Assembly: GCA_028284075.1 (NCBI GenBank)
Contig: JANQSL010000196.1
Span: 1-52,656 of the forward strand
Reading direction: 5' to 3'
Length of the DNA: 52,656 bases
Source: Candidatus Sumerlaeia bacterium
GTDB lineage: Bacteria > Sumerlaeota > Sumerlaeia > SLMS01 > JAHLLQ01
The notes beneath the pieces were generated by a model. It was not told the origin of the DNA. It saw nothing but the letters and a program-made list of their open reading frames with translations, and did no database searches. Below are positions 2,397-30,099 of the stretch, one piece after another. The translations under genes and the position numbers were made by a program. Within the stretch, counting starts at the first letter, position 1, and each line of letters begins with the position of its first letter.

Positions 2397-3252
2397 AGCC
2401 CTTCCGTGCGCTGAAGTCCGCACTCGTTATATAGTCGGAGACCTTTGCACCTTCCGGCAGTGCCGCCACGATTTTTTCATACAGCGGATCCTTCCACTGA
2501 GTCATCGCATCCACGTACTCGTCCTTGCGGTGAATCGCGATATCTGACAGCCCCGCCTCACGCATGACACGCTCCGTTTCGGAAATCAGCTCCGCCCCCG
2601 CGATGCAGCCCACCAACGCCTCCACCATCGACTGAATGCTTTCCGGTAATGGATTCACCAGCGCCAGATCCGAAACGGCAACACGCCCGCCCGGCTTCAG
2701 AACCCGCGCGATTTCCTTCCACACACGGCTTTTCTCCGGCGAAAGATTAATCACACAGTTGCTGATCACAACGTCCGCGAAGTTGTCCGGCAACGGCAGC
2801 GCTTCGATTTCGCCAAGGCGAAACTCCACGTTGTTCAAACCGGTTCGTTCGCGATACGCTTCCGCGTTGCGACGCGCCTTCGACAACATCTGAGCCGTCA
2901 TGTCGACACCCACCGCGCGGCCCCTTGCCCCAACGCGCCGCGCCGCAATGAACACATCGAAACCACCGCCGGAACCCAGATCCACAACCACTTCCCCTTC
3001 CGACAACTCCGCCAGTGCCGTCGGATTGCCGCACGACAACCCCATGTTCGAACCTTCCGGCACAACCGACAGGTCATCCTCGGCATAGCCGATCGCCTGA
3101 GCCAGCATCGATGCGTTGTCTCCCGAATCCGGGCCGCAACAGGACGAACCGCCACAGCACCCGGATGAGCTTTCCATTGGATTCTGCTCCGCAATGGCTG
3201 CATAGCCGGAGCGAACGGTCTCACGTACGTGCTCTTTGTTTGTTGCTGTCAT
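2395..3252 (-). CDS. arsM: Arsenite S-adenosylmethionine methyltransferase
   Basis: Methylates arsenite, using S-adenosylmethionine, to methylated and partly volatile arsenicals. The 285-residue protein has a class I methyltransferase core with SAM motif I at DLGSGGGFDVF. The three conserved arsenic-binding cysteines are Cys74 (MGLSCGNP), Cys166 (ISNCVIN) and Cys216 (VGCIAGA). An N-terminal Cys-rich patch with two CC pairs may add metalloid binding. The start is supported by a GGAGGA ribosome site. It is the second gene of the ars operon. Its TAG stop coincides with the terminus of repeat copy A, so the last codons abut an inserted element. Confidence 0.95.
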   Translation of the reverse strand: MTATNKEHVRETVRSGYAAIAEQNPMESSSGCCGGSSCCGPDSGDNASMLAQAIGYAEDDLSVVPEGSNMGLSCGNPTALAELSEGEVVVDLGSGGGFDVFIAARRVGARGRAVGVDMTAQMLSKARRNAEAYRERTGLNNVEFRLGEIEALPLPDNFADVVISNCVINLSPEKSRVWKEIARVLKPGGRVAVSDLALVNPLPESIQSMVEALVGCIAGAELISETERVMREAGLSDIAIHRKDEYVDAMTQWKDPLYEKIVAALPEGAKVSDYITSADFSARKG

Positions 3253-25849: not shown

Positions 25850-27244
25850 CTATTTATTAACGCGCCACTTGCGGTGAGTAATGCCGTATTTCTTGACGCG
25901 ATTGTTCATTCGATCAGTGGAGATCCCCAGAAGCCTGGCGGCTTCGGTCTGGCGCCAGTTCGACCGGCGCAGAGCTTCGATGACAAGCTTGCGTTCGAGG
26001 TCGTCGATACTGATGCCCGTGTCAGGAAAGTTGACGATCCTCTCAACGTCGGCCGTTTCTCCAATGCCGCAGTTGCGAATGTCTTCTTCGTTAATCACCG
26101 ATCCGCCGCGCGCGCGAATGACGAGCCGCTCGCAGATGTTTCTCAGTTCGCGAATGTTTCCGGGCCAGTTGTATCCGTGCAGAAGCTGCATCGCGCCTTC
26201 GTCGGGTTCCGGAACGGGACGTCCGCTCCGTGCCGCGGCGTTGCGCAAAAAAGCCCGGGCCAGCGGATCGATATCTGCGCGGCGGCGGCGCAACGGAGGA
26301 ATATCGACGGGAAACACGTTCAAACGGTAGTACAGGTCGTCGCGAAAACCGCCGACTTTCACATCCTCCATCAAGTCACTGTTTGTGGCGGCAACAATAC
26401 GGACATCGACCTCGATAGGCTTGCCACCGCCGACTCGGGTGAAAGTCATGGTTTCGAGAACACGCAGCAGTTTCGCCTGAACATCGCGGGAAACGTCACC
26501 CACTTCGTCGATGAAGAGAGTTCCCCCGTCAGCAAGCTCGAGCTTTCCCTTCCTCATTGTTTTTGCATCTGTGAATGCGCCGCGCTCGTGCCCGAAGAGC
26601 TCGCTTTGCAGCATGGTATCGTCCGGCAGCATGGCGCCGTTGATATCGACGAAATCACCGGACCGGCCCGACTCGCGGTGAATGGCTCTGGCGACCAGTT
26701 CTTTGCCAACACCGGTTTCGCCTGTAATGAGAACGGATGCGCCGGTAGGAGCCACCTCCCGGATGTCATCCTTGATGCGGCTGATCTCGACGGAATCACC
26801 GACAAGCTCTCCGAACTCGCCGGTTCGCTCGACAGCCTCACGAAGGCGGCGATTCTCGTCCGCCATGCGACGGGCGCCGAGAGCCCGGTTGAGGCGAACC
26901 ACGATCTCGGGACGACCGGCGTCCTTGGTCAGATAGTCGCTGGCGCCACGCTGCATGGCGTCGACGGCGGTTTCCACACTGGTGACGGAGGTCAGCATAA
27001 CGATGGGAAGGTCAGGATCGACCTCCCGCTCCTCGCCACGGCGGACGTGGGACAACAGATCGAGACCGCCCATACCCGGCATCTTGACGTCGCACAAAAC
27101 GGCGTCATAGCTCTTGCGGGTCAGCATCCGGAGCCCTGCTTCGGAGCCCTCCGCCACTTCCGCCATGAACCCGTCCAGACCCAGGTTGCGGGCCAGCCGG
27201 CGGGCGAAAACGGGGTCGTCCTCGATGATCAGGATCGTTGGCAT
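25850..27244 (-). CDS. NtrC-family sigma-54-dependent response regulator
   Basis: A 464-residue transcription activator. The receiver domain (residues 1-125) carries phospho-acceptor Asp52 in DAVLCDVKMPGMGG. The AAA+ domain has Walker A GETGVGKE, the sigma-54 contact loop as GAFTDA rather than GAFTGA, Walker B GGTLFIDEVGD and YYRLNVFPVDIPPLRRR. A Fis-type helix-turn-helix ends the protein (QTEAARLLGISTDRMNNRVKKYG). The start is the ATG before PTILIIEDD. The upstream open frame is unlike protein. No histidine kinase is nearby. It is divergent from the GH2 gene, a possible target. Confidence 0.94.
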   Translation of the reverse strand: MPTILIIEDDPVFARRLARNLGLDGFMAEVAEGSEAGLRMLTRKSYDAVLCDVKMPGMGGLDLLSHVRRGEEREVDPDLPIVMLTSVTSVETAVDAMQRGASDYLTKDAGRPEIVVRLNRALGARRMADENRRLREAVERTGEFGELVGDSVEISRIKDDIREVAPTGASVLITGETGVGKELVARAIHRESGRSGDFVDINGAMLPDDTMLQSELFGHERGAFTDAKTMRKGKLELADGGTLFIDEVGDVSRDVQAKLLRVLETMTFTRVGGGKPIEVDVRIVAATNSDLMEDVKVGGFRDDLYYRLNVFPVDIPPLRRRRADIDPLARAFLRNAAARSGRPVPEPDEGAMQLLHGYNWPGNIRELRNICERLVIRARGGSVINEEDIRNCGIGETADVERIVNFPDTGISIDDLERKLVIEALRRSNWRQTEAARLLGISTDRMNNRVKKYGITHRKWRVNK

Positions 27245-27396
27245 GGAGGAAGATGAACCGGGCAGGATAAGTGGCAAATCAAAAGAGTGGACTGACACGG
27301 GTGGGTTTGTGTTTGGCGTGAAGCTGCAATAAACCTTGTGCTCGGAGTCCGCTCGCCTGGACCATTTTGGGTACCTATCCCCCGGCGCAGGAGCAA

Positions 27397-30099
27397 ATGG
27401 CGGACGACGCGGTTGTACTGGACAGCGGCTGGACATTCCGCGAGGTCGAACCGTCGGAATTGACGGACTTCGCGGCGCGGTCCCTGCCCAATCCTCTCTC
27501 GAACGAGGGATGGATACCGGCTTGTGTGCCAGGCCATGTCCATCTGGACCTCGCCCAGGCGGGGGAGTTGCCGGATCTGAATGCCGGAGCCAACGAACGC
27601 CGCGCCTGGGGACCGGAGAAAACGGACTTTCTCTACCGGACCACATTCCCGCTTCCGGAGCAGTGGCAGAAAAGCGCCAACGGCGAGGAACGGCGTGTGA
27701 TGCTCGCCTTCGATTCGCTCGACACGTACGCGTCGATCTATCTGAACGGTGAATGCATTCACGACTCGATGAACTGGTTTCTGCCAGTCCGAATGGATGT
27801 GACGGACCACCTGAGGCCGGGGGAGAACGCTCTCCTCGTGCATTTCGATTCAGCAGTGCGGCGTGCCGGGGTTCGCGAGTCGGAATACGGGCGCCTTGAG
27901 GCGGACTGGGATCGCAGCCGTGTGTACAACCGCCGGCCACAGTATCTGACGGGTTCGCCCGTCAGTCCGCGCATTTCCGGATGCGGCTTTCCAGGCAAGG
28001 TCACACTGCGGCTTCTGGACCGCCTGAGGCTTCGCCATCTTAATGTTCCCGTTGTCGAACTTACGAGCAATTCCGCCCGGGTGAACATCGAATCGGACAT
28101 CGAGGCCTTTATTCCGAACGAGGTGGATATTCATTGCACGATCGAGCGTCTGGAACCGGTGGGATCGGGAACGAATTACCGCTCCGCTCTGATCGATGAA
28201 AAGCGAAAGGTCTTCAGCGTCAAAGCGGGAACCTTCCGATTCGCCCACAAAGCAAACATTGAGAGCGCAGTGCTCTGGTGGCCGTTGGGGCACGGGCCGG
28301 AGGGTCTGAACCGCCGCACACTCTATCGCGCTCGAGTCGTTGCCCGCATCGAGGGTGAAATCGTCGACGATCAGGAATGTCTGTTTGGACTGCGCTCCGT
28401 GCAGCTGGTTTCGGAAGGGGTAATCGAAGGCTTTCATTTCCGAATCAACGGTCAGCCGATTTACGTGCGCGGAGCGACATGGCTGCCGCCGTCCATGTAT
28501 CCGGGAAGTACGTCAGACGACGACATTCGCCGGATGCTGGATATGGCGGCGGCGGCAAACATCAATCTGCTGCGAGTCTGGGGCGGCGGCATCTACGAAC
28601 GTGACGCGTTCTATCGCCGATGCGATGAACTGGGCATTATGGTGTGGCAGGAGTTCCCTTTCACGCGGGGGGATTACCCCGACTACCAGGCATTCTGGCA
28701 GAACGTGCAGCGGGAAGCGGCTTCTCATATCCGCCGCCTTCGGACCCATCCGAGTCTTGTATTGCTGTGCGGCAACGACGAAAAAACCTGGTGGGATGAA
28801 GGAAAACCGGCGGGCGACCATCACAACTCGGGGCAGCGGCTCTTTACGCGGTTGTTGCCGCGTCTCGCGGAGGAGTACGCACCCGCTGTTCCCTATCTGC
28901 CCTCGACTCCTTCCGGTCCCGTAAAGGCAAACGATCCGCGGGATGGTGACTATCATTCCGATGTCTGGGATGCATGGGATCCGCCCGAACGATATCGTGA
29001 AATCGAGGCGCGGTTTGTATCGCGGTTCGGCTTTCAGGCGTTGCCGGATCTGCGAACCATTCGCAAGTGGACGAATGCTGACGACGTGTCCTTGAATCAT
29101 CCTGAACTGGATGCGCACCAAAAGCAGCCGGAAGGCAATGCGCGCATTCTTCGTCATGTCTTTGCGAAACTGCGGCCGCCGGAGACACTGGATGAGCTGG
29201 TCTACATGAGTCAGTGGATCCAGGCGCGGGCCATCACAACGGCGGTGGACGTCTGGCGCGCACGGCGTCCGGCGACGATGGGCTCAATCCTCTGGCATTT
29301 CAACGACTGCTGGCCGGGTATTACATGGTCGATTGTCGATCATTCCCTGAGACCCAAACTGGCGTACTGGGCGCTTCGGCAGGCCTACGCACCGGTCAGT
29401 ATCGTCTTTCTTCCCGAAGGCGATGATGCCGTTCGTGCCATTGTTGTAAACGATGGACGGCGCTGGGACGGAAATCGCGGTCTCGTGTTTCGTGTGAAGG
29501 CTTACCGCCATTCGGGTGAACTGATTGACTGGCGGGATGTGGAACTGGACGTGCCGGTGGACGGCCGTGCGGATGCGGGAATCTTCAGCTACGCATCCCT
29601 GGGAATAGACAATCCGGCGGACGGTGTGATTGCGGGTGAATTGTGCAGCGGACAAACCGTTGTCGCTTCCGGATTGCATCTGCCGGTGGAACCCCGCCGC
29701 GCAAAGTTTGCGGAACCGCAACTGGAAGCGCGGCTCGACTGTATTGTGGCGAAGCGCCGTGCGGTGATTGTGGTCCGTTCAAAGAACATTGTTTGCGGTG
29801 TCGAGATCGGCTTTCGCGATCTCGACGGTGCACACGTCCGCTTCGACAATGCTTTCGATATCTGGCCAAGCCGTGAAGTGTGGGTGAACGCGACGGTTCC
29901 GGGAGATGTTCCGGAACAGGTTCTGATGAGATCGCTGCAGTTTCGCTGTCTTAACGATTCCGCGCCCGGCCGTCGTATCGAATGGCGTCCGCTTCCGCTT
30001 GAAAAGGGTGAAGGCCGTGCGGAAACACACAGCAATGAGCAGATTAATGTGTCACCTCAACTGCGCATGACGGACGTTGTGCGAAAATTGCAGGAATAG
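27397..30099 (+). CDS. GH2 family beta-mannosidase-like protein lacking the nucleophile
   Basis: A 900-residue protein with GH2 layout: sugar-binding jelly roll (1-190), immunoglobulin-like domain, TIM barrel with WGGGIYERDAFYRRCDELGI, and C-terminal beta domains. It reads along its length like beta-mannosidases. The acid/base glutamate is kept at Glu462 (CGNDEKTW). The nucleophile motif, normally FVSEFGFQ, reads FVSRFGFQ, with Arg543 (codon CGG). The usual WDWGP pocket motif near residue 185 is replaced by TGSPVSP. No signal peptide is seen. A ribosome site, AGGAG, supports the ATG. Hydrolysis by the normal retaining mechanism is doubtful. It could be a binding protein or use altered chemistry. 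Confidence 0.9.
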   Translation: MADDAVVLDSGWTFREVEPSELTDFAARSLPNPLSNEGWIPACVPGHVHLDLAQAGELPDLNAGANERRAWGPEKTDFLYRTTFPLPEQWQKSANGEERRVMLAFDSLDTYASIYLNGECIHDSMNWFLPVRMDVTDHLRPGENALLVHFDSAVRRAGVRESEYGRLEADWDRSRVYNRRPQYLTGSPVSPRISGCGFPGKVTLRLLDRLRLRHLNVPVVELTSNSARVNIESDIEAFIPNEVDIHCTIERLEPVGSGTNYRSALIDEKRKVFSVKAGTFRFAHKANIESAVLWWPLGHGPEGLNRRTLYRARVVARIEGEIVDDQECLFGLRSVQLVSEGVIEGFHFRINGQPIYVRGATWLPPSMYPGSTSDDDIRRMLDMAAAANINLLRVWGGGIYERDAFYRRCDELGIMVWQEFPFTRGDYPDYQAFWQNVQREAASHIRRLRTHPSLVLLCGNDEKTWWDEGKPAGDHHNSGQRLFTRLLPRLAEEYAPAVPYLPSTPSGPVKANDPRDGDYHSDVWDAWDPPERYREIEARFVSRFGFQALPDLRTIRKWTNADDVSLNHPELDAHQKQPEGNARILRHVFAKLRPPETLDELVYMSQWIQARAITTAVDVWRARRPATMGSILWHFNDCWPGITWSIVDHSLRPKLAYWALRQAYAPVSIVFLPEGDDAVRAIVVNDGRRWDGNRGLVFRVKAYRHSGELIDWRDVELDVPVDGRADAGIFSYASLGIDNPADGVIAGELCSGQTVVASGLHLPVEPRRAKFAEPQLEARLDCIVAKRRAVIVVRSKNIVCGVEIGFRDLDGAHVRFDNAFDIWPSREVWVNATVPGDVPEQVLMRSLQFRCLNDSAPGRRIEWRPLPLEKGEGRAETHSNEQINVSPQLRMTDVVRKLQE

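Follow-up and report, generated by a model that had tools for sequence, protein, structure and literature searches.

The window that we analysed, a 52,656-nucleotide contig of a Candidatus Sumerlaeia genome, carries on its forward strand a GH2 β-mannosidase-like gene (27397–30099, stop codon included; 900 amino acids) whose product is probably a cytoplasmic pseudo-β-mannosidase. Judging from sequence comparison and structure modelling, the protein would descend from a GH2 exo-β-mannosidase and have its scaffold maintained by selection for a non-catalytic task. The nucleophile and much of the sugar pocket are lost, the scaffold is conserved, and selection acts on something other than catalysis by the barrel. 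From the residues, the fold and the selection pattern together we infer that the protein lacks glycosidase activity and has a binding or scaffolding role.

Residues and predicted fold of the window protein

The gene is identified by its open frame, homology and predicted fold, and a ribosome-binding site, AGGAG (27389–27393, + strand), lies upstream of its ATG. The intact 900-residue frame reported in a preliminary description of this DNA, made from the letters alone, is real. The protein (P0001) belongs to the GH2 family by sequence (phmmer E = 1.7e-117 to 5n6u), and solved β-mannosidases match it along most of its length. The AlphaFold2 model (pLDDT 88.9, pTM 0.92) has the exo-β-mannosidase XacMan2A as its top Foldseek match (6byi, TM 0.85/0.89); the Dictyoglomus enzyme and BtMan2A follow closely. 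The same description had held that the overall fold remains and had called for structure prediction, and the predicted mannosidase fold is indeed complete. By eye, we saw no signal peptide at the N-terminus, which disfavours the suggestion that the protein is a lectin, if a secreted one is meant.

The nucleophile position is occupied by Arg543 (29023–29025, + strand), read from the alignment and the codon; as originally described, the codon is CGG, at least two base changes from GAA or GAG. The WDWGP motif, correctly reported as lost, is replaced by SPVSP (residues 187–191; 27955–27969, + strand), where outside the clade the W, D and W are present in 39/39, 39/39 and 38/39 homologues. The acid/base Glu462 (GAA; 28780–28782, + strand) is kept here, again as first described, and lost in the sister genus. 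The damage to the pocket is wider than had been noticed. The Asn of the NE motif is replaced by Asp461 (28777–28779, + strand), which is Asp in all five orthologues and Asn in 39 of 40 outside homologues, and deletions following residues 468 and 520 have removed two pocket positions that hold Trp in 34/37 and 40/40 homologues outside the clade. Among 115 columns conserved in the 40-member outside set, 113 are covered by the window protein and 90 of these are retained. Many of the losses fall at sugar-pocket positions, namely W187, D188, W189, N461, E543, the two deleted Trp, C424 and W457. Arg393 (28573–28575, + strand) is kept, being invariant in the clade and present in 39/40 outside homologues; it aligns with a GH2 Arg that assists the nucleophile (PMC12243196). 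Trp395 and Trp644 are likewise retained.

Against the features expected of an active GH2 β-mannosidase, the protein thus lacks the Glu nucleophile, the WDW motif and the pocket Trp residues, and in the NE motif the Glu is kept but preceded by Asp. Compared with XacMan2A (6BYC), BtMan2A (2JE8) and the Dictyoglomus enzyme (5N6U), the window protein shows homology over most of its length, shares the multidomain fold (TM 0.83–0.85 by query length) and conserves the positions of Arg393 and Trp395, but it differs from all three in the nucleophile, the WDW motif, the Asn-to-Asp change of the NE motif, the two deleted pocket Trp and an extra C-terminal tail.

Orthologues, order of the losses and selection

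Our family sample comprises five genomes, most if not all of them draft MAGs: G000 (the window's genome), G001 of the same genus, G003 and G004 of the sister genus, and G002. Each contains one orthologue of the window gene and a second GH2 mannosidase homologue, which has canonical motifs in every case (L027–L031); 40 other aligned GH2 mannosidase homologues served as the outside set. The G001 orthologue is 84% identical to the window protein, and the Arg-bearing orthologue of G003 is 51% identical. The nucleophile column reads Arg CGG in G000, Arg CGC in G001 and G003, His CAC in G004 and Glu GAG in G002, the earliest-branching member and the only one of the five with a Glu nucleophile. The acid/base column reads Glu in G000, G001 and G002, Ala in G003 and Gly in G004. 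Both columns are Glu in 40/40 of the outside set.

Because Glu is universal in the outside set and Arg is common to three independent MAGs of two genera, Arg543 is not a chance substitution. The preliminary description had named Glu in all close relatives as the result that would overturn its reading, and 4/5 orthologues lack Glu; its proposal to look for a clade fixing Arg was borne out in so far as Arg occurs in three MAGs of two genera, but G004 has His. What is fixed across the clade is the loss itself. The chance that Arg543 stems from a private mutation, or from an error in sequencing or assembly, is negligible. Such an explanation gains something from the draft state of the genome, but independent orthologues share Arg through different codons, which refutes both possibilities, and the rest of the pocket has changed as well.

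The four Glu-less proteins form one clade with G002 outside it (support 100/98), and the same grouping persists with the pocket columns removed. The support in that case is 89/90, so a single loss of the nucleophile Glu, on the lineage to these four proteins, is likely but not certain from the sequences. By the same comparison, the loss of the acid/base Glu in G003 and G004 is the later event, coming after the nucleophile loss. A tree of the neighbouring response regulator does not settle the branching order of the three genera. The orthologue of G003, which has lost both Glu residues, is also predicted to have the full fold (AlphaFold2, pLDDT 90.4, pTM 0.92), and the mannosidase fold is thus complete in the models of both states, with one Glu lost and with both lost.

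The gene is under purifying selection. Between G000 and G001 the orthologues have a dN/dS of 0.027 and a dN of 0.087. In the same two genomes the canonical GH2 paralogue has values of 0.030 and 0.114, and the neighbouring response regulator has a dN/dS of 0.017. Since dS is saturated, these ratios are rough and the comparison of dN carries more weight. It is very unlikely that we are looking at a gene decaying under relaxed selection, its function gone once a canonical paralogue had taken over. The presence of another canonical-motif GH2 in every genome and the loss of catalytic residues would fit such a history, but the reading frames are free of stop codons in all five genomes, dN does not exceed that of the canonical paralogue, and conservation is about 0.84 in all domains alike. 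A pseudogene is ruled out by the open frames and the low dN/dS.

The distribution of constraint within the protein is unlike that of canonical enzymes. In 12/12 canonical pairs conservation is higher in the catalytic barrel than elsewhere in the protein (odds 1.5–4.2), an excess that is absent from the two within-genus pairs of Glu-less proteins (odds 0.93 and 1.16). Between the two Glu-less genera a small barrel excess persists (odds 1.4–1.6), part of which may predate the loss. The low dN/dS combined with the missing barrel excess indicates that the protein is maintained while the type of constraint imposed by catalysis has gone or become much weaker.

The protein could still be an enzyme with an altered mechanism, which we consider improbable: Glu462 would be the general acid, Asp461 or an external nucleophile (water or phosphate, for example) would stand in for Glu543, and Arg543 and Arg393 would hold the substrate, some other sugar that may be anionic. 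Consistent with this, Glu462 and Asp461 occur together in both genomes of the window's genus; Arg393, Trp395 and Trp644 have also survived. However, the orthologues of the sister genus also lack Glu462 and Trp644, the barrel is without excess constraint inside either genus, and several more pocket residues are lost. Because the sister genus has lost the acid/base Glu (to Ala and Gly), a surviving or phosphorylase-type mechanism, which the preliminary description had suggested, is disfavoured; that genus also lacks the loop-8 Trp, and we found no shared replacement acid in its orthologues. Survival of enzyme activity through another mechanism is conceivable chiefly in the window's own genus. 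The broader proposal of a repurposed protein fares better, given the loss fixed in two genera, the purifying selection, the retained fold and the lack of barrel-specific constraint.

We therefore return to the pseudo-β-mannosidase as the preferred reading, which is also favoured by the canonical-motif GH2 remaining in every genome and by the response regulator that adjoins the gene in 4/5. Counted against it are the Glu462 kept in this genus, the saturated dS, the sample of five genomes, the barrel excess between genera and the broken regulator linkage in G003. The ancestral GH2 exo-β-mannosidase would have exchanged its Glu nucleophile for Arg, and had its mannose-binding pocket dismantled, on the lineage that gave rise to two genera within a single family of Sumerlaeota; the acid/base Glu would have disappeared later, in the sister genus, and selection for binding, scaffolding or regulation would have kept the multidomain scaffold throughout.

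The neighbouring response regulator and the C-terminal tail

Upstream of the window gene and divergent from it lies an NtrC-type response-regulator gene (25850–27244, − strand) with receiver, sigma-54 interaction and Fis-type HTH domains (Pfam). The GH2-like gene adjoins this same regulator in 4/5 genomes, in one of two orientations: it is divergent from it in G000 and G001, with 152 bp between the two in G000, and directly upstream of it in G002 and G004. In G003 the two are on different contigs. The regulator is class-wide. Neither the compared flanks nor its surroundings in other families yielded another shared neighbour, which makes it unlikely that the adjacency is a remnant of synteny, but it does not prove a joint function of the two proteins. 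A polysaccharide-utilisation locus was rejected: the genes on either side have housekeeping or unrelated functions, the one exception being an amylase-type gene close to the G002 copy.

The shared 152-bp intergenic region (27245–27396) contains blocks that align with the same-genus relative (L113, about 3096–3250), GTTTGGCG and GCAATAAACCTTGTGCTC among them. These blocks match no known promoter type, and a search for a sigma-54 site between the divergent genes gave nothing above chance; a GG-N9-GC element in the intergenic region of G000 and G001 was rejected as a sigma-54 promoter, its spacing being wrong. Antisense to the regulator runs a 460-residue open frame (25874–27256, + strand) that is open in relatives too; since it is conserved less than the sense gene, codon bias most probably accounts for it.

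The clade-specific C-terminal tail (residues 856–900; 29962–30096, + strand) is common to the five orthologues, and its end is predicted to be disordered. A search for the tail in a second protein of the five genomes gave no convincing match (one match at E = 0.67), and we rejected the idea of a general targeting tag for want of a convincing second carrier.

A cytoplasmic binding or regulatory role (the preliminary description had named a regulator among its options) has one support from context, the linked response-regulator gene. That the pseudo-β-mannosidase is a ligand-responsive binding or scaffold protein tied to the adjacent NtrC-type regulator, perhaps through its tail, we offer as a tentative proposal with odds somewhat against it. 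The more specific version, in which the scaffold would be a cytoplasmic ligand sensor or co-regulator of that regulator, the Arg543/Arg393 pocket would bind an anionic metabolite and the tail would signal, is unlikely as it stands.

Relation to other glycosidase families

GH2-like proteins without a catalytic Glu also occur in unrelated phyla. Six sequences from Kiritimatiellae, Verrucomicrobia and Lentisphaerae MAGs (L073, L074, L076, L084, L087 and L090) form a separate GH2-mannosidase-like group with Gly or Asp in the acid/base column, a motif of WCCGDGGGRG type (WCGGDGGGRG in L084) and no alignable nucleophile motif. A Bacteroidota MAG carries a tandem GH2-like pair (L049: 7483–9900 and 9890–12493), one copy lacking both catalytic Glu residues and the other having Lys at the acid/base and Glu at the nucleophile position. 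In Acutalibacter sp. 1XD8-33, a GH2 homologue (L082: 10785–12197) has Ala in the nucleophile column and Gln in the acid/base column.

Exo-β-mannosidases of GH2 belong to subfamily GH2_13, and in the 2025 division of GH2 into subfamilies the nucleophile is called an invariant Glu, while acid/base substitutions are reported in several subfamilies, GH2_16, GH2_19 and GH2_21 (PMC12243196). These three resemble the window protein as natural losses or changes of a catalytic residue inside GH2, but they keep the nucleophile that the window protein has lost. Non-catalytic relatives of glycosidases include Klotho (GH1), the chitinase-like lectins (GH18) and heparanase-2. Like the window protein, these keep a glycosidase fold and have lost catalytic acids; they come from animals and from other GH families, whereas the window protein is bacterial, belongs to GH2, is apparently cytoplasmic and is encoded beside a response regulator. 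A limited literature search found no bacterial GH2 pseudoenzyme clade with an ordered loss.

A nucleophile described as invariant across GH2 is thus lost here in a whole clade. The orthologues provide a small natural series, from a relative with both Glu residues through loss of the nucleophile to loss of the acid/base, in which to study how a large enzyme may become a non-enzyme. In predictions of carbohydrate use by Sumerlaeota, the automatic label of β-mannosidase for this gene is probably wrong.
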